Assembly: GCF_042453785.1 (NCBI RefSeq)
Contig: NC_091676.1
Span: 751,501 to 815,500, forward strand
DNA: 64,000 nucleotides
Source of the DNA: Malus domestica
Lineage: Eukaryota; Streptophyta; Magnoliopsida; Rosales; Rosaceae
Direction of reading: 5' to 3'
The position numbers and the translations under genes were made by a program. Shown in pieces: positions 10,806 through 53,974 of this stretch (the first letter of the stretch is position 1; each line of letters starts with the position of its first letter). The notes beneath the pieces were generated by a model that was given only the letters and a program-made list of their open reading frames with translations, had not been told where the DNA came from and did not search any database.

Positions 10806-10940
10806 TATTTGGTAAAATATATTTTCATTTCACACTTTAATAAAGTTACAGTTTAGGTGTATATATACAACAAACTAACATAGTATCTTAACCACTAAGC
10901 TAACAGCTAAGAAGATACATTTACAATATTGCCCTTTATA
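10806..10940 (-). repeat. 3' LTR of the copia element (135 bp)
   Basis: It matches 15345-15479 base for base as I read them. In element orientation it starts TATAAAGGGCAATATTG and ends AAAATATATTTTACCAAATA. The gag-pol reading frame runs into it and stops at 10907. Confidence 0.95.
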
Positions 10941-13900
10941 TCCCCCCGCAAACTGAACTTAGGTTGTCGAAGTTGAAGTTTGTCACGAAGGAAGAGGAAA
11001 CGAAGCTTGGACAGAGACTTGGTGCAGATATCGGCTACTTGGTCTTGAGTGCAGACAAAATGGACAGAGATCTGCTTGGCAATGACCTTTTCCCTAATGT
11101 AATGATAGTCGATTTCTACATGCTTTGTCCGAGCATGAAAGACAGGATTTTTTGCTAGAGATATAGCGGAAATATTGTCACACCAAAGATGAGGGGTGGT
11201 AGGTAAGCAGTAGCCAATATCCGATAGTAATTGACAGAGCCAGGTGATTTCAGATGCAGTATTAGCAAGAGAGCGGTACTCTGCTTCGGTGGAAGAGCGA
11301 GCAACAGTCGGTTGCTTCTTAGCATTCCAGCTAATCAAAGAGTTACCAAAATAGACACAGTAACCTCCAGTGGACCGGCGGTCAAGAGCACAGCCAGCCC
11401 AATCAGCGTCCGAGAAGGCAGTGAGAGTAGGAGGAGTGGAACACTTGGAAAACCAGAGACCAATATCAAGAGATCCCTTGAGGTATCTTAGAATACGCTT
11501 TACAGCCTGAAGATGTGAAAGTTTGGGAGTGTGCATATATTGGCATACAAGATTAACTGCAAAACTGAGATCAGGACGAGTCCAGGTGAGATATTGCAGA
11601 GCACCAACCAGGGAACGATACTCAGAAGCATTGTCACAGAAGGGAGAATCATGATCAAGTTTGGAGGTGCTGAGAGGAGTACTGCAAGGTTTAGCGCCAG
11701 TCATGTTGGCATTGGATAACAAATCCAATATGTATTTAGTCTGAGATAGAAAGATACCAGCAGAATATCTTTTGACTTCAAGACCAAGAAAGTAGTGCAG
11801 CGGACCCAAATCCTTGATGGGAAACAGGGAACTCAGTTGCTGAATAACTTGGTTACATGCAGCAGAGTTTGGACCAGTAACTAAAATGTCGTCGACATAA
11901 ACCAGAATGAAAATCATAGCTGAACCCTTTTTGATAAACAAGAAATGGTCGCTGGGAGAGCCAACAAAACCGAGAGAAGTGATAGCACCATGAAGCTTGT
12001 CATACCAAGCCCGCGGAGCTTGTTTTAAACCATACAACGAACGATGCAAGTGACAGACATGAGATGGGTGAGCTGAATCTTCAAATCCAGGAGGTTGCTG
12101 CATAAAAACTGATTCATTGAGTGTCCCATGTAAGAAAGCATTGCTGACATCTAGTTGATTCAAGAACCAATCGAACTGGACCGCAAGAGTGAGGATGAGG
12201 CGAATGGTGACTGGCTTGGCTACCGGACTGAAGGTTTCGGTATAATCTAAACCTTCCTGCTGATTGAAGCCCTTGGCAACGAGCTGAGCTTTGTACCGGT
12301 CTATAGTACCATCGGGCTTACGTTTGATGCGAAAGACCCATTTACAGCCAACAATATTCTGTGAGGGAGACGGGGGAACAAGAGACCAAGTTCCAGTTTT
12401 GATGAGAGCAGTAACCTCTTCTTGCATAGCTTGGGACCAATGAGGATATTTGGAAGCTTGGAGATAGGTGTTAGGGATGTAATCCACTGAGAGATGAGAG
12501 GGAAGAGGGTGCTTAGTAGCAGTGAGAGCTTTGGGTTTGAAAACACCAGATTTGGACCGGGTTTGCATCGGATGGGTGTTAGAAGGTTGAAAAGAAGTGG
12601 AAGGAACGGAATCTGGAACAGGCATTACAGGACTGGAGGGAATAGGTGGGGAAGGGTTATGGGAGAAGGGGGATGGGGAAATGGAAGGGGAACGAGGGAA
12701 AGAGGAGGGAATACTAGAGGAAGAAGAAAGAGGAAAAGTAAAAGTAAGGGTTGATGGAAGAGATGAGGTAGACCTAGGAGGCAGGGATGAGGGTGAAGGT
12801 GGTATGTTGGAGATACGATGGAATGGAAAACTAGATTCATTGAAGATGACATGTCGGGAAATATATACTCGGTGAGTTGCAGGGTCAAGACATCTATAGC
12901 CCTTGTGATTTAAACTGTATCCAAGAAAGACACAGGCTCTGGTTTTAGGATCCAGCTTCGAGGAAGTATAAGGCTTAAGCCAGGGGAAGCAGGCACAACC
13001 AAAAACCTTGAGAAGGTCATAATTCGGAGCTCGATGATATAGAGATTCCCAAGGAGACTGTCTGGATGCAGTAGGCAATCAGTTGATAAGATAGATGGCA
13101 GTGTTGAAAGCCTCCACCCAATAGATATGGGGTACTTTGGAAGCTGTCAAAAGAGTGCGAGCAGTTTCAACCAAGTGACGATGCTTGCGCTCGGCACACC
13201 CATTTTGTTCGGGTGTGTGGGGGCAGGTAAGTTGATGATGAATGCCATGAGTAGCCAAGAATTGAGAGAAACTAGTGCTTAAGTACTCTCATCCGGAATC
13301 AGATCTCAAAGTAATAATTTTGGTACACAGAGAATTTTCAACCAGAGATTTGTATTCCATAAAAGTGGACAGTACATCAGATTTGCATTTCAAAGGATAA
13401 AACCAGGAGTACCTAGTAAAATCATCCACAAAAATGATGTAATACCAAAAACCTTGAGAAGAAGCTTGAGGAGAGGGTCCCCAAACATCCGTGTGGACAA
13501 GTTCTAGAGGTTTGCTAGTTGTACAAGAAGTGGATACAAAAGGAAGCTTGGAGCTTTTAGCCAATGCACAATCTGAGCAGAATGACTTAGTTACATGAGC
13601 TAAAACAGGAATACAAGATTGAGAAGCAAGTTTATGAAGAATCTTGACAGATGGGTGACCCAATCTTTGATGCCAAACATCCGTAGAAGCTTTAGCAGTG
13701 GCGGTGAGAGCTTTATGATTGCCAGTTGCAGATGAGGAAAAATGGAAAGGATAGAACCCTTGCTGAACAGGTCCTTTAAAACGCATCATCCCCGAAGAAA
13801 GATCATTCACAGTGAAGTGAGAGGGATAAAGATGCAATGAACAGTGATTATCAAGTAAAAATTGATTTGCAGATAGAAGGTTATGTTTCAAAGCAGGCAC

Positions 13901-15187
13901 ATAAAGAACTTTATTGAGATTGAAAGCACTAGTAGAAGTATGCAAAGTAGTAGAACCAGAATGAGTGATAGGCAAACCTTTGCCATCACCAATATACACT
14001 TGTTCTGGACCTGTGTATGCTTCAGGATTTTGCAGAGTGGAATAGGAGTTGGTCATGTGGGATGTTGCTCCAGAATCGACAATCCAAGTAGGATTGGATG
14101 AAGAAGCAGTAGCAACCATCGCTGCAGGAGAGGATTTTCCACCATAAGCCAGATTGAGGCGATGAGGACAATCACACGCTTCATGATCAAGTTGATGACA
14201 AATCTGACAGGGATGTTTCTTGGTGTAGGAAGAAAAATTGTTGCGACCTTCACGATTAGAATGTGAATTATTGCCACGATTAGGAAAAGATCTCGGATTG
14301 TTAGAGGATCGGTAATTGCCACGATTGAAAGGACCGCGATTATGAGAGCGATCCACTCCACGACTTGGATGACTGAAGGTAGAAGGAGAATGAGCCACAA
14401 AAGCCTGAGAGTTAAGACTGGATACAGGAAGAGGAAGAATGCCAGCAGATGTGTGAATAGCCTGAAAATAGGACATCTCAGAGATACTTTTCTTGCGATT
14501 GGCTAATTGAATCTCCTTGCTAATAAGCAAGCCATGTAATTCATCAATTGTTGTAGATCCGAGACGAAATTGAATAGCATCAACAAACGAATCATACTCA
14601 GGAGGAAGACCGTGGAGAGTGACAGAGATCAGATCGGAATCTTCAACCGGAGAGCCGGCACTGGCAAGAGCATCAGCAATTGCCTCAATTTGCTGGAGAT
14701 ACTGAGCAGCAGATGAAGTTCCTTTGGAAAGATTACGAAGTCGAGAGCGTAGCTTATGAATATGAGACTGAGAGGCCGTGGCAAGGCGAGATTCCAATTT
14801 CGCCCAAAGATCGCGAGCCGAATTCACACCAACAGTGTAGGGAATGAGGGAATCCAAGAGCGTGGAGTTGAGCCAGATGAGAATATTCTGGTCATTTTCA
14901 TACCAAGAAACATAAGCAGGATTAAGAATGCGATTTCCTGAGGAATCAAGAAGAAATTGAACCGGCGCCGCCATAGATCCATCAATGTGACCAGTCAGAT
15001 TGTATGGGCGAAAAATTGGAGCAAAGAGAGCGCTCTAAGTCAAGTAATTGGTGGTGGTGAGCTTGATTGGCACCATGGATCCAATATTTTGGATTGTGAT
15101 GGAGGTAGAATTTAAAGAATTAGGGTTCGAAGATCCAGTCGGAAGGGGGTGAACTGGAGAGGCCGATTCCGATGAAGGAGATGCCAT
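10907..15187 (-). pseudogene. copia gag-pol polyprotein, interrupted by three in-frame stops
   Basis: One frame of about 1,427 codons runs from MASPSSES at 15187 (an in-frame Met 12 codons upstream is possible) to 10907 inside the 3' LTR. Visible in order: Gag with a CX2CX4HX4C zinc knuckle; protease with DSGATSH; integrase with the HHCC zinc region and the catalytic acidic residues (HTDVWGP, FVDDFTRYSW, TPEQNG); reverse transcriptase with YVDD at 11889-11900; and RNase H (SDADWAG, STEAEYRS). Breaks, with no frameshift: TAG at 15035-15037 where the family has Trp, TGA at 13289-13291 at a conserved Gly in the integrase core, and TGA at 13079-13081 where Arg is expected. This copy cannot make a full polyprotein without readthrough, although it could be moved by products of a sister copy. 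Confidence 0.95.
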
Positions 15188-15344
15188 TGGCAAATAGACG
15201 AGGAAGAATGAGAGCACGAACAAAGATCTTCAACCACGATCTTCAACCACGAGCGAAGAATCGATCAAGAACGCAGAAAGAAGAAGCAGGAGAAAGGAGG
15301 ATCGAAGAACGAGAGTCGTTAGACAGAGAAGGCGATTGATACCA

Positions 15345-15479
15345 TATTTGGTAAAATATATTTTCATTTCACACTTTAATAAAGTTACAGTTTAGGTGTA
15401 TATATACAACAAACTAACATAGTATCTTAACCACTAAGCTAACAGCTAAGAAGATACATTTACAATATTGCCCTTTATA
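15345..15479 (-). repeat. 5' LTR of the copia element (135 bp)
   Basis: Identical partner of 10806-10940. The initiator-tRNA-Met-type primer site (TGGTATCA, minus strand) starts immediately next to it at 15344, with no spacer. Confidence 0.95.
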
Positions 15480-32537: not shown

Positions 32538-35501
32538 TTAGGCGGCAGCAGAAGCCTTCTTCTCTATGTACTTTCGGGAAAACACCATGTACACCACCAA
32601 ATTTAAGAAGCTGAGTCCGGCTAGAAGCCAGTAGAAGTAATCGAGATGGCCCTCGTTCAAGTTATCCGGAATCCATCCGGCCTTCCCGCCCTCGGTTGTG
32701 ATGGATGTTACGATCGTCAGAATCAATGAGCTGAGGTAATTTCCCAATGAATTCGTCAGCAGCGACAAGGCGCTGCACAAACTCCTCATCGCGTCTGGTG
32801 CTTGCTCGTAGTAGAACTCGTGTTGTCCAATGAACGTGAAGACCTCTGCGGCGCCTAACAAAAAGTACTGGGGAATTTGCCAAAGTATACTCAGTGGAAC
32901 AGCAACCTTTTGGTGGATCAAACCGAGCTCCCTGGCAAGCTGCAATCGCTTAATCTCTAACAATGCAGCAGCTGCCATGCATAGAATGGACACGAACAGC
33001 CCAATTCCCATCCGTTGCAGCTGCGAAAAGCCCCTCTCCTTGTGTGTATACCTTTTAGCGATTGGGGTGATTACCCTATCGTAGATGGGGACCCAGATGA
33101 TGACACTTACGAAATCAAAAAATGAGAGAGAGGCCGCAGGAATGGTGACAGAACCCACGGTTCTATCCATTAGCTTCCCTTGTACCACAAATAGTGTTGA
33201 CATTTGGGCAAACACAGCAGAAAACACAATTCCTGTGGCCCAGATAGGAAACATGCGGACCAAAATCTTCAGTTCCTCTACCTGTGTAACGGTACAGAGC
33301 CTCCACGGATCGGAGAAGTTGCCATATGCAATCTCGGTGTTTGTGATCAAAGCAGCTTTATCAAGGCACCTGCAGCAAAGACATGGTAGATTAAAAGCAC
33401 CGTGTATTCCAGAAGCAATGTTTCGTGAAATATGCAACCGAATCCTGGAAAATTAAAGAGAAGAGGACTACCTCAGTTCATTGCTGTGATCCAGTTTACG
33501 GCTCCCTTCAATGGCAGAACTTTTATCTTGTGTTTCATAGAGAACACTGTCCCCGAGCACCTTCACATTCCTTTTACGGAATGCTGCAACCAAAACCTGG
33601 AATATTCTTGTTAGAGGGCTTCCGCCTGGTTTCTGAAATCGGTATAGAGGTGTGCCAATCAATAAACTTGCAATACAAACGCCCATAAGCGCTGTAGGAA
33701 TTCCAAATCCAATACCCCACCCAACATTTTCCTGAATCCACACCAGTAAACTGCTTGCTATAACAGCACCAATGTTTTGAGAAAAGTAAAACCAGTTGAA
33801 ATACGACCCCTTCTTCACTCTTTCCTTGGGATCGGTATCATCAAACTGGTCTGCCCCAAATGGCCATATACAAGGTTTGATCCCACCTGTCCCTAACGCA
33901 ATCAGATATAGTCCAGCAATCAGCACTGCATACTGTGCAGTAGTAGCTGCAGGGCATACGGAACCAACACATTCAGCAGGTTTAAGTGCTGGAACTGATG
34001 CTGAGAGAGTCAGAGTACACATTCCCTACACGAAATCACAATCATTCAACAAGTGAGGAAAATCGATGCATGAACTTTCATGTTTAAAAAAAAAAAAAAC
34101 GAAATCACTTCTAGTATTTACAATTAAGTAGACTGTAGTGAAACCGGCAATTGTCCAATATCTTCCCCAATAGGTATCGGCTAAGATTGCCCCGATGAGG
34201 GGTGTAATGTAGCAAGTTCCTTTCCAATTAGTGATACTCGTTGAAGCAACGACAGTTTCTTCGTGCAGTTTGTCGATGAAATAGTTGACAAGATTGGTCG
34301 AAATCCCATAGAAGGCCAACCGTTCACAAAAGAACGTACCTGCATTGCATATATACACACACTACAACTATTACGAAAAGAACAGATTATCGGACACATG
34401 AGAGCAAATGTCAAAGACAGCATGTCACCGAGAATGAAGGAGCACGCTTTCCACTGTCCGGTATTATTTTTGAGAGCAGGGTTCCCCTTGGAGTCAACTG
34501 AACCATCTCCGGTGTAGAGGCCACCGCCTTCATTCTGGAGACACAACACAAAACATCGTACAGATCATGTCGAACAAAACATGATCTTAAACCGAAGGAA
34601 AAACAAAAGCGGGACAGAGAGAATGTAAGTGATGTAAACTGAGTATGTGTTAGTACAATCCACGCACAACCTTGCAGCAATAGGTATCGTATAGAACAAA
34701 ACACGATCGTAATCCAAAGTGAGTTTTTTTTTTTTTTTTGAAAGATTTGTTATTATTACGGGGACTATTATAATAATTCAGAGGAGTTTCGAATCTGAAA
34801 TGTAAAAATCAAAATTCAGCGCCCGATTCATTAAGATATTGGACAGCATGCTGAAGTGAGTTAACGGGTGTATTCAATTGAGAATTTGAGAAATTTTAAT
34901 GGAGTTTAACTCTAGAGATTCTATGTAAAATTTTGATAATTCTAATTCTAATTAAATATACTTCGAAAGTTATAAACTTTTGTAAAATTCTAAATGAATA
35001 CACCAGATTTCTAAAGATTTTAACAAATTATCTTAAAATCCTAATTGAATACGCATTAAATTTCAAAGAATCACTTAAAATCCTGATTGAATACCTCTTG
35101 ATTCATTAAAAGAATTAAAATCCCATAAAATCTCAATTAATACACTCCATAAATTTGCAGCAAGTCGAAGCTGACCCCTGGAGACTGCCTGGAAGACTTG
35201 GTACAATCACTCAGAAAGCAAAAGTCAACTTATTTGCTTCTATATTTTTTATTTTTAGAAAAACCCAGATTAGTTATACAAATCTATGATTCAACAGCAA
35301 AGATGGCACGAACATGAAATCAGACCACTTCAAGATGCAGAAGAATGTACGGAAATATTGGGGAAATAAAAAAGAAGTAAAAAACAACTCATTCAGATTA
35401 TTGTGCAGTGCTAAGATTTAAGGAGCAGATGGAAAGAGGTAGAGGATTACAACCTGCAAAACATCTTCTAAGAGTGCTGTCTCTTCAGTCTCAGAAGCCA
35501 T
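32538..35501 (-). CDS. NPF8/PTR-type proton-coupled peptide transporter, copy 1
   Basis: Five exons: 35501-35454, 34534-34429, 34339-34122, 34025-33472 and 33369-32538, about 585 residues. This is the POT/NRT1-PTR family, 12-helix membrane proteins; the closest type I recognise is Arabidopsis PTR1/PTR2 (NPF8.1/8.3), which move di- and tripeptides with protons. Family blocks: [70 protein letters not shown], and [18 protein letters not shown] near the C-terminus. Oddity: the helix-1 ExxER motif reads FFCER ([12 protein letters not shown]), so the first Glu is replaced by Phe. Exon sizes match copy 2 almost exactly, which shows tandem duplication. The 5' leader carries TATC, TC and TA repeats. 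Confidence 0.93.
34865..35153. mobile_element. MITE-like element in intron 1 of the first NPF gene
   Basis: The left end GGGTGTATTCAATTGAGAAT is complementary to the right end ATCTCAATTAATACACTCC. The interior repeats CAATTGAATAC-like motifs several times (AATTGAATACGC, GATTGAATACC). No clear target duplication is visible, so the class is undecided. It lies wholly inside the ~0.9-kb first intron. Confidence 0.65.
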
Positions 35502-35512
35502 CTATCTATCTA

Positions 35513-35549
<37 letters not shown>

Positions 35550-35550
35550 T
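35501..35550. repeat. (TATC)n-(TC)n-(TA)n microsatellite
   Basis: It starts at the ATG of NPF copy 1 and extends upstream through TC to TA repeats at 35533-35550. The TA tract could act as its TATA region. Confidence 0.9.
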
Positions 35551-36431
35551 CTCTGTTGTTTCAGAGACTCCAAAAGACGATTAGATAAAAAGAATCAAAC
35601 CTTTATTGGTTCGTCGCGCGAGCAATAATTGATGAAAAGGTGACGTAATTGAAGGTCCCGTAGCCCTGAGTCCATAGACTTCACTGTCATTCGTTTAATT
35701 TGTCGATGACACGCAACAATGGTTAGCCAACACACCCCCATCACCATCAACTCATCAAGTGCAAATTGCACCTCCATTTTCAGATATTCACTTAGTGAGA
35801 TAAGGTTTTTGTTGTTTACATTTTTTATTTTTGCATTGAGTTTTTTTCCAAAAGGATAAAACCGATCATGTGAACAGTTACAACCGTTCTTAAAGATAAA
35901 CATGAACGGCTTTAACTACTCAATTACGCCATTATAAATATGACCGTCAGATCAGAAACCAAAACAACAATTCCATCGATTCCTTTTCATACATCACAGA
36001 GAAATACCACAACCAATTCGCCAAAAATCCAAGTTCGAGTGCAAGAACTTGGGTTTTAGTTTATGACAAATGAGGCAAAAATGCTGTGCATCCAACTCCC
36101 ACCAGGAAACTTCGATAGGGCTGCCCGGCCACATCATCTCTTGTACAGGGTTACCAGTCAAACCACCAAGGAGAAGAAACTCAGAAAGCACGAATGGTTT
36201 AAAAATTGCAGAACTTATGGAAAGAATCATTGTGAATTACACACATTTCTTTATAATCATAAATGACTTTGTTTGAAGGAAAATGCAGAGCTTGTAGTTT
36301 CTATTTACAAAGTACCGGTAACAGGGTGATTTATTCATCGTCATCAAATCAGAAAAGCATTACTAACACTTCTTCAGTTTCTTCCGTTTGCGGTTTTGAG
36401 GGTGAGCCGAAGGCGCCACCGCGAGAAAGCC
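35502..36431. other. Spacer between the tandem NPF genes
   Basis: It contains microsatellites next to copy 1 (TATC, TC and TA repeats, 35501-35550) that sit in its leader or core promoter. The rest is AT-rich 3' flank of copy 2. No gene is seen. Confidence 0.6.
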
Positions 36432-39400
36432 TTAAGAAGCCTTCTTCTTTTTGTACCTCTTGGCACAGACAACGTACACCAACATATTCAAGAGGCTGAG
36501 TCCAGCCAAGAGCCAGAAGAAATAATCCAGATGACCTCCGTTTAAGTTGTCTGTTATCCACCCAGAATTTCCATCCTTTGTTGTTAAGTAAGTTACGAGT
36601 GTTAGAATCAAAGAGCTCAGATAGTTCCCCAATGAATTCGTCAGAAGCGACAATGCACTGCATAGACTCCGCATAGCATCTGGAGATTGGTCGTAGAAGA
36701 ACTCAAGCTGCCCAATGAATGTGAATATCTCCGCAGCACCCAACAAGAAATACTGAGGTATTTGCCAAAGGATACTCATCGGTACAGCTACCTCTTTGTC
36801 AACCAAATCAAGCTCCTTTGCAAGATTCAACCGGTTAATCTCTACCACAGCAGCAGCCGACATGCATAGCACTGAAAGAAAGAGACCAATACCCATCCGT
36901 TGCAGCTCTGAGAAGCCCCTTTCTTTACCAGTAAATCGCCTAGCAATTGGGACAATAAACCTGTCATACACGGGGACCCAGAAAATAACACTGATGACGT
37001 CAAATGTTGAGAGGGAGGCTGGGGGAATGGTGAAAGCACCAATAGATGTGTCCATCATCGTCCCTTGCTCCACAAACATAGTCGACATTTGAGCATAAAC
37101 AGCAGAAAAGACAATTCCAGTAGCCCAGATTGGAAACATGCGGATTAAAATTTTCAACTCCTCCACCTGTGTTACAGTACAAACCCTCCATGGATTGGAG
37201 AAGTCCCCAGTTTTGGTCTCAGTTTCTGATATCACAGCAGCTTTGTCAAGACATCTGCAGCAAAAACAAAGCTCAGATTTTTTGGAACAATTGATACTGT
37301 GGTCGAGTTCTTCGAAAAACATGTAAGTTATACATTCAGAACATTGCACAGTATCAATATTCAATAGTAGGGAATAAGAAAATAACTTCATTATTTTAAC
37401 TAGGACACAAAACCAACCAACTACTTCAAAACAACTAACACAAATTCCATAAAAAGTCCAATTATTCTTCAACTTCAGAGAGAGCTTATACAGAACGCGC
37501 CTCCCACTTCATGACATACTAATCTCTTACAGTAGTTTGGACATCGATAAAAGGTGATCAAACTTTTACGTGTAATATAACATGAAGAATAGCAAAGGAA
37601 CAGACTGTACTAACATAGCACAAAAACAAAAAAAAATCCATTTTCTTTTGTGCAGCAATTCGAAGATTCGTCATTTAAGTTTTCTGCGAAAATGTGTGAT
37701 TCTGTAAAATTCAAATAATTATTCCCAAGGAAATAACACAGTAAGAAGAAACTTACGTCAGTTCATCACTGTGCTCCAGCTTACGACTTCCTCTAATGGC
37801 AGAGACTTTATCTTGTGTTTCATAAAGGAGACTACTGTCTTTAGGGACGTCCAAATTCCACTTACGAAATGATGCAACCAAAACCTGGCACATTCTTGTA
37901 ACAGGGCTTCCCCCTGGTTTCTGAAATCTATATAGGGGTGTGCCTGAAAAGAAACTAAAAATAGCAATGCCCATAAACAATGTAGGTATACCAAATCCTA
38001 AACCCCACCCAGCATTGTCTTGAACCCAGACTATTAGAGAACTCGATATTAGAGCACCGATGTTGATAGAAAAGTAAAACCAGTTGAAGAAGGATCCCTT
38101 CTTTACTCTTTCAATTTTATCTGTATCATCAAACTGGTCTGCCCCAAAGGATGAAACACATGGCTTGATGCCACCAGTTCCCAGAGCAATCAGATAGAGT
38201 CCAAAGAAGAACACTCCATACTGGGCCGGAGAAGCGGAAGGACATACCGAATCCACACATTCTGGAGGCTTCAACGCAGGAATTGATGCAGAGAGAGTCA
38301 AAGTACCCATCCCCTACACCAAATAATTAGTGAACAAATCAGCAAAACTTATATGCTCTAATCCCAAATACATATACATATACATATACGTGTGCATGTA
38401 TATGAATGAAATTCTATAAGCACCCAAAAGATGGGAAGAAAAAACAAAATTGAATTTGTATTTACAATGAAGTAAATGGTGGAGAAAACAGCAATCGTCC
38501 AATATCTCCCCCAATAAGCATCTGCTACAACAGCCCCGATCAGAGGTGTAAGATAGCAAGTGCCTGACCAAGTAGTAACATTCCTTGCCGCAGACACGTT
38601 TCCTTCGTGCAATTTGTGTGTGAGATAAGTAACCAGGTTAGTGGCAATCCCATAGTAGGCCAAACGTTCGCAACATTCGGTACCTGTAACATAACATAAG
38701 CACTACAATCACGTAAACATCTTTGATGCACAAGAGCTATGTATAGTGAAGAACAAAACATCACCTAAAATGAAGGGGCAAGCTCTCCAATTCCCAGTAT
38801 TTCGTTTCAGAACAGGATTCCCCTTAATGTCAACCGAGCCGTCTCCAGTGTACAGCCCGTCACCTTCCTTCTGCAGATGCAACAGAAACACATCATGTGA
38901 ATAGTGTCACGCTTTTCGAAACCTCGTTTAGGATTCCTTCCATAGGAAACACTTCTGTTCATAAGTGTGCTTTTATTAAAAACACACTGCCATCTTTATT
39001 AATTCAAGAGATTCTGTATGCGTTTCACAGGTAAAGTCGTAAGTGCTTCTGGTGGGTCACCTACTCTAAATGCTTCTTAAAAAGCACTTGGAGAAGAACA
39101 AAAACAATCCCAAACCCACTAATGGCAACAGATGATCAGTATTCAAACGTGAACAGAAATCGCAGGGTACCCAATTAACTTCAAATCATACACCTAAGTA
39201 AAATAGCTTCCCCAAAACACCAATTGACTAAAAGTCAAACCCACCTTCCCAATCGAATCTTAGTTTAATATTAAAAATTCAAAATCCCTAACAGCAGCTA
39301 AGCAAATTTTTGAGATCCAAAAATCGAAATCAACACAAAAGATCACAACTTTCAGATGAAAAATTGAAGAGAGAGAGAGAGAGAGGAACCTGAATAAGTC

Positions 39401-44710: not shown

Positions 44711-46702
44711 ATGGGGCTCTCGAAAACATTCTCAGAGTCCGATGTGTCGCTCCACTCCACCACTAGCTATATCCTAACGTCACCGGCTAAGTATGTATCT
44801 CGTTGTTTTGCGTGAATTAATCATGCATGATGCTGCTCCATGGCATCTAAGTTTGAATCACCTTTTCCGTAGTATTGTCAGCAATTATGCATGGTTTGCG
44901 GTAGCTATATATGTATATAATATATTGATATTAATTATGGTTTTGGTGGTGCAGGTACAAGATGCCTGAGAATTCAATGCCAGAGGACATGGCGTTCCAA
45001 ATGATAGACGATGAGCTGAGGTTGGATGCGGACCCAAGGCTGAACTTGGCTTCGTTTGTGACAACATCGATGGAGGATAAGGCTAAAAGGCTTATCATGG
45101 AGTCCCTCGACAAGAACTATGTTGACATGGATGAGTACCCTGCTACCACTGATCTTCAGGTCTCGTGTCTAGACCACCAAAAAATAACAAATAAAAAAAT
45201 AAAAAAGAACAAAGATCTATTACAAAATTTTAAAATATATATCCTTTTTTATTATGTCCAAGGAGGAAGGAAAGATAAAATTTTTGACTCAGAATCAAAC
45301 GCTTAAATTTGTCGAAAAGGAAAGCGTCAAGTACTTAATATATGTCCAACTACTTGTGTCAAAATCCTTTAGGTAGTGTCATTTTTGTTCATTTTTTTTC
45401 TTTTTTTAGTCGAACCTTTAGGTAGCTTTGTGTTTTTATTTTGTTTTATCTATTTTGGTCAAGAACTTGTTGTCTATATACACACGACACCTCACGAGTT
45501 TTTTAGAATAAAAAAAAAGTAATTAAAAATTTGGTCAAAGCGGAATCGATATTAATATAATTTTGTATTCCCTCTCAAGAGTGATCATGACTGATCATGA
45601 TGTGTTAATTACATGTGTTCAGAATCGGTGCGTCAATATGATAGCCCATCTTTTTAATGCACCACTCAAAGACGGCGAGGCTGCGACCGGAACGGGAACA
45701 GTAGGATCATCGGAGGCCATAATGCTGGCGGGCCTTGCATTCAAGAGGAAGTGGCAGAACAAGATGAAGGCTATCGGCAAACCCTATGACAAGCCCAACA
45801 TAGTCACTGGTGCCAATGTTCAGGTACATACGTAATTTATTCTCTTCATGTCACAATCTCTTCTTATTTTGGGGTTTTTCTTCTAAATTTTATAAACCCT
45901 AGTTGTTTTTTTTGTCACTCATAACCCACACCCTAAGTATTTGTAGGTTTGCTGGGAGAAATTTGCAAGGTACTTTGAAGTAGAACTGAAGAAAGTGAAA
46001 GTGAGGGAAGACTATTATGTAATGGACCCCGTCAAGGCTGTGGAGATGGTGGATGAAAACACCATCTGCGTTGCTGCCATCTTGGGATCCACTTACAATG
46101 GCGAATTCGAAGATGTCAAGCTCTTGAACGATCTTTTGATGGAAAAGAACAAGCAAACTGGATGGGACACTCCGATTCATGTTGATGCGGCGAGCGGTGG
46201 GTTCATCGCGCCCTTCTTGTACCCTGATCTTGAATGGGACTTCCGTCTTCCACTGGTGAAGAGCATCAATGCGAGCGGTCATAAGTATGGCCTTGTTTAC
46301 GCCGGAATAGGGTGGATTGTTTGGAGGAGCAAACAGGACTTGCCTGAAGACCTAATCTTCCACATCAATTACCTTGGAGCTGACCAGCCCACCTTCACCC
46401 TCAATTTCTCCAAAGGGTCTAGTCAGGTTCTTGCTCAATATTATCAGCTCATTCGACTTGGTTTTGAGGTGAGACTCTAATTGATTAAAAGTGTAATTTG
46501 TTTGACGTTACAAAATAATTTCAATATTAGGATTGCGCCAATTAACACTTTGTGCTTTTAACGAGGTCAATATGAACAAGTAGTATTGACCTTGATTGGA
46601 AAGAACTTATTTTTATTGACCTTAAGTGTGCCACACTTGGTGTGTGTGTATAAAACTTATTTTATTGACTTCAAATGTGGCACACTTGTTTTATATATAT
46701 AT

Positions 46703-46733
<31 letters not shown>

Positions 46734-47364
46734 CACATATATATATATATTTATATATTTATATGATCTCTTTTTTGGGTTCAAATATACTAATGATCTC
46801 ATGCATATAATTAATGTATATTTCTGCAAATTTGGGCAGGGATATCATGAAATTATGGAAAACTGTCACTACCTTGCGATGGTGGTGAAAGAAGGAGTGG
46901 AAAAAACCGGGCAGTTTAAGATACTGTCAAAGGACATTGGGGTTCCGGTGGTGGCCTTTTCACTAAAGGACAGAATCCGTTACGATGAGTTTAAGGTGTC
47001 GGAGGGTTTGCGTCGGCACCAATTTATTGTGCCTGCATATCACATGCCAGCGGATGCTAAGCATGTGGCCTTGCTCCGTGTTGTCATAAGGGGAGACTTC
47101 TCTCGCACTAGGGCTGAGTACCTTCTGTCCAGCATCAACGCTGTGCTGAAAGAGCTCGATGAGCTGCATCCTGTTGCTGCCATTCAAGAAAACGGTCATC
47201 ATAAACTGTCTCTAAATGGAGTTGCAAATGGAAACGGTGAGTTGCCACCAGCTGCTGCTGTTGAAAATTGTCATCACAAAGTGAGCGCAAATGGAGCTGC
47301 ATATGGAAACGGTGGGACAGACACAGAGAATGGCCAGATGACGGACGGTGCAAAATGCTACTAG
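44711..47364 (+). CDS. GAD: Glutamate decarboxylase, without a recognisable calmodulin-binding tail
   Basis: Five exons: 44711-44790, 44955-45159, 45623-45823, 45947-46468 and 46840-47364, joining in frame to about 510 residues ([16 protein letters not shown]...). The cytosolic PLP enzyme converts glutamate to GABA and CO2, using a proton. The PLP lysine is Lys275 in [10 protein letters not shown], and [31 protein letters not shown] and [11 protein letters not shown] are family blocks. The core ends normally ([10 protein letters not shown]). The usual C-terminal ~30-residue calmodulin domain, with its Trp and Lys cluster, is absent. Instead there are two ~25-residue repeats ([18 protein letters not shown] and [18 protein letters not shown]) and a short end, DGAKCY. 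Calcium/calmodulin activation is therefore doubtful. Another departure is TTSMED in place of the usual TTWMEP near residue 60. Confidence 0.95.
46697..46760. repeat. (TA)n-(CA)n-(TA)n microsatellite in GAD intron 4
   Basis: TATA and ACACAC runs between exons 4 and 5. They create false ORFs rich in Tyr and Ile. Confidence 0.9.
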
Positions 47365-49175
47365 TCGGAGTGACAAACATAACATAAACAATTTAAGTAA
47401 TCCATACTAAGTTGAACTCTTTGTTGTTGGAGATCGAGTTTATTAGATCGGTGGTAGGAGTTTTTGTTTCTTTTGTTTTGGTGTTTTTGTTTCTTGGCAT
47501 TTGATCAAATACTTTCAGCTAGTACTAACTGAGAGCGATGTTAATTTTGAGGGTTAAATATAACCAAGGCAGTTCTAAAATATATACCAAACTTTTGTGG
47601 GCTTTTAGATGCATACCAAGATTTTCTGTTGCATCCACACAATTACTAGAAAGTGTTTGGATTTTAACGAGGAAAATAAACTTGGAATTTGGATAAAAAT
47701 TAGAATTTATAAATTGACATGTAACAATTCCCTTGTTTGAATTCATAAACATAGAAATTTAGAATTTCCGTGTGAAAAAAAAACTTGGAATTTGGTATCT
47801 CTAATTCCCAAGTTAAATTTTATGTAAATAGATGTCATTTCCCAATTCCCATGATTGAGAGTGATAGAATTTTTAACACATGCGCAAAAGAGTTAAAAAC
47901 ACCTAAAATACTTGCAAGAGAAACAAAGTTATTATAGTATCATTGGCTCAAGCAAGGTCATTCTCCACAGGGATTCTTTTAAATAGATTGACGTGAAATC
48001 AATTCCCAACTAATTAATTAAAACAAAGTCTTTATTGAAATAGAAAAAGAAAGAAAATACCTTGAAAGTATAAGTCTTGAAATCTCCAAGCTTTGTCCCA
48101 AATCTTCTCTCCAAAAAAAAATACATGCATTCTCTCCCAAACCCTAGGTCTGCCAAAAGGCTTATTTATACTACTCTAAATAAAATCCTCCTAATAAAAA
48201 GTCTTAGAATAAGACTAGGAAACTAAATAAATTAAAATAAAATAGGAAACATAATCATAAATTGACTTGGTAAATTCGCCTAGAAATCTGCACAACCACG
48301 TTTTGGACCCAAATCAGCTCCAAAACTAGCCAAAATAGCTGGATTTAAAGCTTGGACTATTCTAAACACTTCTCCAGAAGGCCACGACCCATCTGAGGTC
48401 ATCTTGGACTCCAAAAACGCATTTTAAGCCCAGAAACGTCACCTTTAGCAACGCGCACTACTCCTTCATTTAATCACCAGAAAATAACCGCTTGGTAGAA
48501 AAGTCCCAAACTTTGACACGAAGACGACAAGAGACACACGAACGTCTTCCAATTTGAATCACTCCAAAATTCATCCAGTTGATCATGTTTTTCTCCAGAG
48601 AAAGTCGAATGTCCTATGTTGAAAATATAAAGCAAAGTATCAAAATTCTACCAAAATAATTATCAAATTATACTAAGAATAGGGTGAAATATATAATATA
48701 ATATTGACTCATTAGAGAGTTTAAAAATAACAATTCCGTATTCAATTCCATTGTTTTTTTAGGTTAACCAAACAAAAAAATTCACAAATTGTAGAAAATA
48801 AAATTCTGTCATTTCAATTTTCGTCATTTTAAAATTTCTTCATCCAAACATAGAGTAAAGGTAATTGCCAATGCCATGACATATATACTTGGGGTTTCGA
48901 ATATTCCAAGCACTTTTGTTTCAGCAAATTAAGTTCTCAAGCATTTATGTACTTGATTTAAACACAATTCAAAGTTAATAAACATACGGCTTCACAGAGC
49001 AAGGTCATTAGCTTGTTCCCGGTACACGGCATGACACACCAAGTATGATAATATAACCACTTGTATTATAATATTTGGTGTGAGTATGATAATATAACCA
49101 CTTGTATTATAATATTTGGTGTGCCGGAGCATGTTCTTGGTACATAGAAAAATCTCTCAGCTTGTGTGTATGTAC
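47365..49175. other. Intergenic, with a possible nested repeat insertion
   Basis: No gene. 47640-48860 has ends that look loosely inverted (GTGTTTGGATTTTAACGAGG against CATCCAAACATAGAGTA). Inside it, about 47880-48710 has a different texture, with GGTCATTCTCCACAGGGATT, which looks like a separate insertion. At 49036-49123 a ~45-bp unit (AGTATGATAATATAACCACT) is tandemly duplicated. Confidence 0.5.
49036..49123. repeat. Tandem duplication, two copies
   Basis: AGTATGATAATATAACCACT followed by TGTATTATAATATTTGGTGT occurs twice in direct succession with no visible difference. Confidence 0.9.
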
Positions 49176-49386
49176 TAATATCTGATATAATAGAAATATA
49201 GTTAGAAGGGTATTATTGTAATTGGGATATATGGCTATATATAAGGGATTGATAGCTATCATTTTCTTAAGTTCAGTTGTATACAATTTCTCTAATCAAT
49301 CAATACAATCTCTCTTGTTTCTTTCTATCATCTTCATATTCCTCTTCCTCTGTACCAATTCTTCATCTTTTGCAATGTAGTTAATA
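49176..49386 (+). repeat. 5' LTR of the non-autonomous element (211 bp)
   Basis: Starts TAATATCTGATATAA and ends GTAGTTAATA. It contains GCTATATATAAGGGATTG, a likely TATA region, and carries a 6-bp insertion relative to the 3' LTR. Confidence 0.93.
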
Positions 49387-50426
49387 TGGAATCAGAGCCA
49401 CCAGGCTCACACCATGGATTCTGGTGATTACACTTCTTAGTTGTTTTCATTTTTTTCCCAGTTTAGCTTTTCTTCAAATTTTCATTAGATATTTCAATAA
49501 GTTTTTCGGTGGGCATTCTCCTTGCTGTGTTCTTGGACGACGAAGCGAGTGAGGTCTTCAACTTGGGCGTTGTTCTGGGTGCCGCGAGATTCTTGGATTC
49601 CATCGAATGTGGTCATTTTGCGGTGGTGGAAGGGAACAATTAATAAAGAGAGGAATTGGTGTTTCGTCAAAATTTGTCTTTAACCTTGGTTTTGATAAGA
49701 GACAGTGATCATTCCCCTTTGATTCAACCACCAGCGTGAGGCGGCCCCGCTTCTGCTCAGCAGTCTTCTGGGACTTCGCCGCTGATTTCAACGCAGGGGA
49801 AACATTGCGGGTTTAAATTCTCAATGTATCTCGAGTTGTCGTGTTTCTTGGATCAAGACCCATGTTGGTTTTTCACAGGAGTCACCGCTCTGGCGTTCTT
49901 GCCGATCAAATCCATAGGAATGTGATCGGAAAAAGAGAGATTATTCGCCGGACATAATTGGGTTCGTTGAGTTTAGATAAGAAAATCAATGAGTGCCTGA
50001 CCAGACTATCTTCGTGGGTCCTCGAGGGAAGTCGAACTGCGGCGTTTAGAGACAAACCCACCGCCATTTCTCACTCGGGTTTTGCTCAATCTTGGTTTTC
50101 TCAGTGTGTGCGAGCGAGAAAGGAAAGCCATGGTTGTTGCTAGTTGGTAGATTGATTCGCCAAGGTTTCTGGTTTGCTTCCTCTGCATGCTTTGGCTCTA
50201 GATTAAAGTTCTTATCAGGTTCTTGATTTCTGATTTTCACGATGCACATAATCTGTTTGATTAAACGTTTCAGTAAGAAAATGTTCGCTATTTTGTCAAG
50301 ATCAGTGTTTGTCATGGACTTCATTTAGTTTGCTGGATTTTCGAACCATGAACTGTGCAATTTTTATGGTGTCCAATTATGTCTCTCTGCCTCGCTGAAA
50401 TTCTACTGTCTCTTTATCTGGCATCT

Positions 50427-50672
50427 GGGAAGATTTAGGAAGCTATCAGGAGTGTCAATCTCCTTGGTTGATTTGATTTCTTAGAGTGTCATTCTCCTTG
50501 GTTAATTTTGGTATATGGGAAGATTTAGGAAGCTATCAGGATTGTCATTCTCCTTGGTTGATTTGGTTTCTTGACATTTTGGTATATGGGAAGATTTAGG
50601 AAGCTATCAGGAGTGTCATTCTCCTTGGTTGATTTGGTTTCTTGGAGTGTCATTCTCCTTGGTTGATTTGGT
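50427..50672 (+). repeat. Tandem repeats inside the LTR element
   Basis: Units starting GGGAAGATTTAGGAAGCTAT are repeated at ~50427, ~50517 and ~50588, and each includes one or two copies of GTGTCATTCTCCTTGGTTGA. Unit lengths are uneven (about 70-90 bp). They may be amplified leader sequence of the captured gene. Confidence 0.8.
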
Positions 50673-50950
50673 GCCAGTCTCTGTAAAGATTCAGGAGGGG
50701 TAATTTGCATATACAGCGAGTGTGTTATTATGGCTTCTTTGTTCAAAGTCGAAAATCTGTTGGGATTACGGTTTAGCTTCAGCAGTAGTAAAATGCATAG
50801 AGTTACTTGTTGCATTTGTTCCAGCAAGCTTGCTATTAGGTTAATCCAAAGTTGGTGTAGTTAAAAGTGCTACAATGTTGGATCATCAACTTTATTCAAA
50901 GTGGTTTGAATTCGGTTTCGATTTTGCGATTAACTGTGGCTTCTTCAGAC

Positions 50951-51179
50951 ATGTTTGATTGGAACAACGAGGAGCTTGCAAACATAATATGGGGTGCGGC
51001 AGGTGAGAGTGATGATCATATTGTGTTGTATAACGAGGCACGTGCTGATTATTGCAACAAGAAGGAATGGAAACAAGAATCTCACACCATCAAGCCTACC
51101 GAACAAAAGACCCATGGGTCCAAAAATTGACTTGCAGGACAGAAAGTTGGAAAGCAGTTCTAATTTTGACAAGACCTGA
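50951..51179 (+). pseudogene. LNK2: Captured N-terminal fragment of an LNK2-like clock gene
   Basis: An ATG opens MFDWNNEELANIIWG, then SDDHIV, then NKKEW, IKPTEQK, and in the next frame KIDLQDRKLESSSNF. This order matches the start of plant LNK2 (night light-inducible and clock-regulated), a nuclear transcriptional co-activator of the circadian clock, as I remember its N-terminus. An extra A in the run at 51122-51126 shifts the frame, and a stop follows, so it cannot make more than a short peptide. It lies just before the purine tract of the LTR element. Sequence upstream of 50951 in the element may be the gene's leader. The identification rests on memory of one family. Confidence 0.65.
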
Positions 51180-51227
51180 CTAGTTCAAACTTCACTTGGA
51201 TACTCCAAGTTTAGTTTAAGGGGGGAG

Positions 51228-51433
51228 TAATAACTGATATAACAGAAATATAGTTAGAAGGGTATTATTGTAACTGGGATATATGGCTATATATAAGGGA
51301 TTGTATAGCTATCATTTTCTTAAGTTCAGTTGTATACAATTTCTCTAATCAATCAATACAATCTCTCTTGTTTCTCTCTATCATCTTCCTCTTCCTCTGT
51401 ACCAATTCTTCATCTTTTGCAATGTAGTAAATA
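51228..51433 (+). repeat. 3' LTR of the non-autonomous element (206 bp)
   Basis: Starts TAATAACTGATATAA and ends GTAGTAAATA, colinear with the 5' LTR. Confidence 0.93.
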
Positions 51434-51438
51434 TGTAC

Positions 51439-52416: not shown

Positions 52417-53896
52417 TCATATTCCCAAGTTCAACTGAGCTTGGACCTCCAAAATGGTGTTAGCAGAGTCCCTCAGCCTCTGTGCCTCCTCATCAGTGAG
52501 ATGTATATTGGCCACGCCCAACACCCCGCCCCTCCCAAGCTGCGCAGGCAGGCTCAAGAACACGTCCCCTCCTTCCACTCCGTAGAAGCCCTTGGCGAGT
52601 ACCGACACAGGGTGGATCTTCCTCTGGTCCCTCAGTATGCTCCGAGCCAGGTTGGCGGCGGAGTAGCCAATTGCCCATGAAGTATACCCTTTCAGACTTA
52701 TCACTTCGTAAGCACTCTCCACAACTGCCTTGTGAATGTTTTCTAGTGTCTCTTTCTCATAGGCTATTTGCTGTTTTTCTAGGAAGTTCAACACCGGCAC
52801 TCCCCCTACGCTTATGCTCGACCACAGCGCCACGGAGCTGTCACCGTGCTCCCCAACTATGTAAGCCTACACATATATACCATATTTCAACAGTAAATTA
52901 GTACAAGCACAAAACTATATAACTTATATATATATATAATAAAATAAAAATGCAGCTTTCTTGGCAAAATGAAAGAAAATTTGAACAGTTTTGATTATGA
53001 CTAAAAAAATAAACAGTTTTGATGCTGCATATTCACAAAAAATGATCTTTAAAGTGAATAATTCTGATTATGACATTTGTAAAGTAAAATACTGATCAGA
53101 GATGTGCGAAAACTATCATAGGCTTATATCCTAACTGATTCTAGGATTATGTTTTTCGGAAGTATTAAATTTGAAAAAAAATAAATAAGTTTACGTGTCA
53201 TCTCTATAAACCCTAAAATTGACTCAACATACATATTTAATAGTACAAAATAGTACATGCAATATACCATTTATTTACCTGCACATCTTGGGCGTTAACG
53301 TCAAGATGATCGGCGATGAGGAAGCGGAACCTGGAGGAATCGAGGTTGGTGCCCGACCCGATAACCCGGTTGCTGGGAAGCCCTGATAGCTTCCAGGCCA
53401 CGTAAGTCAAGACATCAACAGGGTTGGACACGATCAGCAAGATGGTGTCCGGTGAGTACTTGACAAGCGGCGGTATGATATTTCGAAACAGAGATACGTT
53501 CCTCTGGAGGAGGTTCAGCCTGGACTCTCCGGGGTTCTGGCGGGCGCCGGCGGTGACAATACACAGGTCGGAGCCGACGGTAACGGCGTAGTCAACGGAG
53601 GCCATGATTTTGGTGCGGGGAAGGAAGGCGGCGGCGTGCTGGAGATCGAGCATCTCGCCGCGGAGCTTGTTGGGGTTGACGTCGACAATGACGAGCTCAT
53701 CGGCGACGTCTTGGGTTAAGATGGTTTGGGCGATGGCCATGCCGACGTTGCCGGCGCCGACGACGGAGATTTTGGTATGGCGCTTGGTGGGGGAAGGTGG
53801 GTCGGCGCGGGAGATGGGCTTGAAGAAGGCTTGGGTTAAGTCCAGGCCTCCCGGACCCAGTGCTGATCCTGAACTGCTCTTGTGCATGGTTGACAT
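52417..53896 (-). CDS. LDH: L-lactate dehydrogenase
   Basis: Two exons, 53896-53279 and 52866-52417, split by a 412-bp GT-AG intron, giving about 355 residues, the normal plant LDH size. The cytosolic NAD enzyme interconverts pyruvate and lactate and serves anaerobic glycolysis. NAD-binding GAGNVG is at residues 47-52. The mobile loop [10 protein letters not shown] keeps Gln120, the LDH-type residue (malate dehydrogenases have Arg here), and Arg126 for catalysis. SNPVD is near 157-161, substrate-binding Arg189 is in LDSSRF, and catalytic His213 is in GEHGDSS. The N-terminal ~40 residues are a plant-type extension. A TATA-like box lies about 80 bp upstream. Nothing is broken. Confidence 0.97.
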
Positions 53897-53974
53897 GTTT
53901 TTTGTGGGTATGTAATTTAGGTTGTGTATTTTGTGGTGTTTGATGATGTTAGAGAAGGAGAGACAGAGGGGGAG

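Follow-up and report, generated by a model that had tools for sequence, protein, structure and literature searches.

The 2258-bp element at 49176-51433 of the window, by which is meant the whole 64-kb stretch of DNA analysed, is probably a non-autonomous Ty1-copia derivative in which 5' pieces of host genes have taken the place of nearly all of gag-pol, these pieces being mRNA-derived via template switching and the element being mobilised in trans. There is good support for a non-autonomous LTR element having captured the 5' coding piece of an LNK2-like gene, and host gene pieces between LTRs, the mark of a gene-capturing LTR element, were observed in both orientations. The element offers a clean example of an LTR element remade out of the starts of host genes, in which the retained Copia pol end marks the part that was replaced.

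The two LTRs lie on the plus strand, with a 5' LTR of 211 bp at 49176..49386 and a 3' LTR of 206 bp at 51228..51433, both having TA...TA ends, and they are flanked by the target site duplication TGTAC at 49171..49175 and 51434..51438. A primer binding site of the initiator-Met type, TGGAATCAGAGCC, abuts the 5' LTR (49387..49399, plus strand) and carries 1 mismatch against TGGTATCAGAGCC, which we take to be the consensus of the initiator-Met primer site, while the purine tract TTTAAGGGGGGAG is located immediately 5' of the 3' LTR (51228). All the features by which an LTR retrotransposon insertion is recognised were found, from the LTR pair and its target duplication to the primer site and the purine tract, and the first-pass annotation, which had described a clean LTR pair with these signals, was right in its structural reading and in its coordinates. 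The region following the primer site (49400..49508, plus strand, limits approximate) would comprise the leader and a probable remnant of the start of the element's own ORF (ATGGATTCTGGTGATTACACTTCTTAG). Across 205 ungapped columns the LTRs differ from each other at 5 sites by substitution, with a further 7 gap columns (K2P 0.0248); if 4e-9 to 1.3e-8 substitutions per site are assumed to accumulate each year, the insertion would date to ~0.95 to 3.1 million years ago, a rough figure given the short LTRs. No second copy of the element was detected within the 64-kb window, where, apart from the element and the repeats within it, a single match of 18 bases was obtained elsewhere (E 0.01); an LTR pattern had 0 matches in viral contigs, and the Rfam scan of the window at gathering scores returned no match. 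As for the surroundings, a perfect 41-bp tandem duplication (49042-49123) lies just left of the element, which itself sits ~1 kb past the 3' end of a minus-strand lactate dehydrogenase-like gene (52417-53974; Ldh_1_N, Ldh_1_C); ORFs that by eye are glutamate decarboxylase-like were observed at 45947-47364, with an imperfect 52-bp repeat (79% alike) near the 3' end, and at 32538-38313 two sets of minus-strand ORFs, neighbouring and alike, resemble, also by eye, the peptide/nitrate transporter family.

The LNK2-like piece begins with an ATG at 50951, which opens the frame MFDWNNEELANIIWGAAGESDDHIVLYNEARADYCNKKEWKQESHTIKPTEQKTHGSKN up to a stop and spans 59 codons of the plus strand (50951..51127), and after one frame break the similarity resumes in another frame, IDLQDRKLESSSNFDKT, at 51126..51176. 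Residues 1-58 of the 59 align with the N-terminus of Arabidopsis thaliana LNK2 at a score of 141, compared with a mean of 26.2 and a maximum of 56 for the shuffles, none of which reached it (0/2000), and the N-terminal block MFDWN-EEL-NIIWG is present in order with HIV, NKKE, EQK and IDL. The continuation IDLQDRKLESSSNFDKT is collinear with the same reference and by itself scores 37, barely over its shuffle maximum of 36 (0/2000). This reference is presumed to represent the A. thaliana LNK2 N-terminus, and no LNK2 record was found in the libraries searched, so that the identification depends on this presumption together with the match itself. The coding piece follows the protein in order and is free of any intron-sized interruption, the C-terminal R1/R2 motifs are absent, and the fragment stops after about 75 codons, with the open frame ending after 59; the LNK2-like stretch is a piece, not a gene. 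It is the R1/R2 motifs that mediate the binding of RVE8 and MYB3 by LNK proteins (PMC10315267, PMC6356500), and the LNK1/LNK2-specific N-terminal tail of ~300 residues, of which the piece spans just the beginning, is required for MYB3 co-repression (PMC6356500, PMC10315267). The first-pass annotation had seen an LTR element with a clock-gene fragment that follows the order of the LNK2 N-terminus, includes the start codon and suffers a frameshift, and on the LNK2-like capture it agrees with the alignment to the presumed reference, the ATG and the single frame break described above; it had overlooked an antisense phytocystatin piece and a remnant of the Copia pol end, the element being really a mosaic made up of several host pieces. 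When the frame-1 ORF of the LNK2-like piece was compared with Pfam, only PF23844 (phage tail sheath) appeared, a match discarded as chance, being below the cut-off (E 0.001, 18.8 bits against 27) and unrelated, and the same ORF had no match in PDB up to E 10. The piece had no confirmed relative among viral contigs and no match among plasmids; a locus on a bacterial MAG contig, met among the genome contigs (35% identity, E 5e-7, candidate stretches only), was read as chance because the match starts with 8 residues that reproduce the query pattern exactly and is weak in the remainder.

The captured phytocystatin 5' coding piece, MTTFDGIQESRGTQNNAQVEDLTRFVVQEHSKENAH, occupies 36 codons of the minus strand at 49509..49616, its ATG being the complement of 49614-49616, and its 5' UTR probably extends towards about 49700. 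The phmmer search of PDB with this antisense ORF (49509-49616) returned plant cystatins, such as 3ima_B (E 1.1e-4), 9va4_B (E 1.1e-4) and 6vlp_A (E 5.9e-4); the top row, the multicystatin 4lzi (E 3.7e-9), is the sum of three individually weak repeats, and the single-domain matches were used instead. All of the 26 PDB rows except 1z5x (E 0.8) were cystatins or cystatin-based binders, where Affimers and Adhirons were classed as the latter on our assumption that they are cystatin scaffolds. The score was reached by 0/5000 shuffles against stretches taken from each of three of these chains, for each of which the ORF was also the best among 1585 window peptides of at least 25 residues. The phytocystatin features that align to the plant cystatins are GI, with its G near the N-terminus, and LTRFVV, a LARFAV-like helix motif, and the piece runs uninterrupted from LTRFVV to KENAH. 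The ORF is short and stops before the QxVxG inhibitory loop, and the Pfam comparison yielded no cystatin match for it.

The remaining internal sequence is less distinct. The degenerate stretch at 49720..49915 on the minus strand (left limit approximate; ATG complement 49913-49915) is tentatively taken as a third captured host piece: its frame contains an in-frame stop and a frame change and sits behind a plausible 5' leader, and the ORF matched neither Pfam families nor PDB, as the two PDB rows obtained (E 1.6-1.7) fall elsewhere in the frame. Another internal ORF showed a sub-threshold Pfam match to TGFb_propeptide (E 0.093), and nothing was found in the PDB scan of plus-strand frame 0, two further frames of the region being represented in the PDB scans by ORFs only. 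The non-coding stretch before the LNK2 ATG (49990..50950, plus strand, left limit approximate) is probably the LNK2 5' leader and/or an intron. It is 41% T from 50180 to 50670, and TTCTTCAG directly precedes the ATG, which judged by composition and motif resembles an intron ending in its acceptor; should the stretch be an intron, the source would have been genomic DNA or unspliced RNA. In addition, a repeat of 71-90 bp (TGGTATATGGGAAGATTTAGGAAGCTATCAGGAG...) occurs three times within the element at 50419-50669, where a two-copy 71-bp array with 98% matches was noted at 50505-50644.

The link with Copia is provided by the short plus-strand stretch at 51186..51226, a remnant of the end of pol that runs into the purine tract. 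Compared with the pol end of the Copia element found in the window at 10806-15479, this stretch scores 46, which was reached by 0/5000 shuffles and by 0/8224 equal-sized slices of the window, the highest slice scoring 40. No family of gag, RT, integrase or RNase H appeared when the internal region was compared with Pfam in all six frames (up to E 1), and the same library, used as a control, recovered RVT_2, gag and other domains in the Copia at 10806-15479. With its gag and pol domains absent, the element is not an autonomous Ty1-copia, and this absence together with the pol-end match indicates a Copia derivative in which host sequence has supplanted the coding region. The simplest history is that a Copia element had its coding sequence swapped for host sequence, beginning shortly past the start and extending to the last pol codons. 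The Copia at 10806-15479 lies on the minus strand and is a recent insertion, having two identical 135-bp LTRs with TA...TA ends and GATTG on both flanks, and its gag and RT domains are distributed over two ORFs separated by a break at 13079-13288. It resembles the element in the TA...TA LTR ends and in the stretch of pol end and purine tract, whereas it differs in possessing gag and pol domains, in its 135-bp LTRs and in lacking significant LTR similarity. The sequence shared with Copia is confined to 51186-51226, as the LTR and leader of the element gave no match to the window Copia beyond 100 shuffles (leader score 36, shuffle maximum 53), and because the LTR and leader are unmatched, this Copia is regarded as a relative and not as an established parent or helper.

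The history that best accounts for this arrangement would have the element keep only the parts needed in cis (the LTRs, primer site, leader and last pol bases with the purine tract), with nearly all of gag-pol exchanged for 5' pieces of an LNK2-like gene in sense, of a phytocystatin gene in antisense and perhaps of a third gene in antisense. These pieces would most likely have come from mRNAs packaged with the RNA of the element, by template switching of reverse transcriptase, and an autonomous Copia relative would then have mobilised the element in trans, leading to the insertion seen here with its 5-bp target duplication. Judged from the reading frames, the LNK2 coding piece without an intron-sized gap and the cystatin piece that continues past the usual intron region favour an mRNA source. 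The antisense pieces stand against it, since they require an extra step beyond plain reverse transcription of mRNA, and so does the sequence preceding the LNK2 ATG, which is T-rich and looks like an intron. Rather unlikely in our estimate is that the same Copia derivative gained its host pieces at the DNA level, for instance as filler when a copy that was broken or extrachromosomal underwent repair, with introns and promoter stretches included; the intron-like stretch with the acceptor-like TTCTTCAG and the mixed orientation of the pieces would fit such a course, and the published captures by similar plant elements consist of exons only (PMC4717578) and speak against it. The cystatin piece bears on the same choice, as phytocystatins with a single intron have it between the LARFAV and QxVxG motifs (PMC5664115). 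The piece continues past that site, which counts against a DNA-level origin. The exact position was presumed from the rice oryzacystatin intron site, which we take to be Ala38/Asn39, the captured piece reaching only three residues past it, and the literature search for the exact cystatin intron site found nothing. Many plant cystatin genes are intronless, 12 of 20 in soybean (PMC5078837) and all but 5 of 25 in Brachypodium (PMC5423411), so that the cystatin piece need not be processed; the argument for mRNA holds only if the parent has that intron, and an intronless parent would make it silent. Among the matches listed in the literature on LNK2 intron structure, LNK2 is unmentioned.

That the LNK2-like and cystatin-like frames arose by chance or are the retrotransposon's own genes is scarcely credible: neither frame has a Pfam match above the cut-off and the second LNK2 stretch alone barely exceeds its shuffles, which would suit this view, whereas 0/2000 and 0/5000 shuffles reach the LNK2 and cystatin scores, and Copia domains are detected in the window's Copia and absent here. 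It is also very unlikely that the element affects its parents, with an LTR-driven RNA carrying the LNK2 5' piece and antisense cystatin that feeds small-RNA silencing or competes with the parent genes, although the first-pass annotation had raised an RNA-level effect on the parent. Sense and antisense pieces are both present, and unique small RNAs are reported on some LTR-captured genes (85/672 in rice and 812/1343 in sorghum; PMC3726574), while the broken LNK2 frame and the divergence of the LTRs speak against such an effect; a clock-gene piece under LTR control would become interesting only once its transcripts or small RNAs had been shown.

Under the preferred history of template switching from mRNA, the order of the pieces may itself be informative. 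The recognisable pieces are all gene starts whose 5' ends point to the middle of the element, with the cystatin (and the third ORF) in antisense on the left and LNK2 in sense on the right, a pattern observed in one element from two firm pieces and one tentative piece. Capture during both minus- and plus-strand synthesis of reverse transcription could produce it, a proposal that we consider unlikely as it stands. In minus-strand synthesis, proceeding from the 3' side, the enzyme would switch from the pol end into LNK2 mRNA and run to its 5' end, giving the sense piece; in plus-strand synthesis, proceeding from the primer-site side, it would switch into cystatin mRNA and then into a second mRNA, running to their 5' ends and giving the antisense pieces. 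If this were true, captures of several genes should display antisense pieces on the 5' side and sense pieces on the 3' side, with the mRNA 5' ends facing the middle, and the same inward-facing arrangement in other elements would turn the vague notion of abnormal template switching into a countable rule. The word 'orientation' does not occur in the available text of PMC3726574.

Gene capture of the kind known from Bs1 and GmaRetroS15 has already been described, and the present element is a new example of it. The LTRs of 206-211 bp fit what we take to be the TRIM range; the total length, given below, exceeds that of gene-carrying TRIMs. LNK2 is unmentioned among the matches listed in the literature on LNK2 and LTR retrotransposons, and the literature search with peptide motifs found nothing. 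In the 30 gene-carrying plant TRIMs of seven subfamilies, exons are carried without introns, and two TRIMs carry exons from more than two genes (PMC4717578), while abnormal template switching has been put forward as one route of capture (PMC13317346). The Arabidopsis TRIM with a cytochrome P450-like piece is likewise non-autonomous and has captured a piece of the host, although a single donor gene is named for it (PMC13317346). Bs1 of maize, also an LTR element with captured host sequence, has transduced pieces from three genes, and differs in forming a chimeric ORF that is transcribed and translated (PMC13317346), whereas the pieces of the present element lie in both orientations and its LNK2 frame is broken. 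The soybean TRIM GmaRetroS15, compared by its description, is similarly small, with 5-bp target duplications and three host-gene pieces that include a 5' UTR, and is distinguished by other donor genes, the gene-carrying TRIMs of that report measuring 1,172-1,449 bp, below the total of 2258 bp observed here (PMC4717578).
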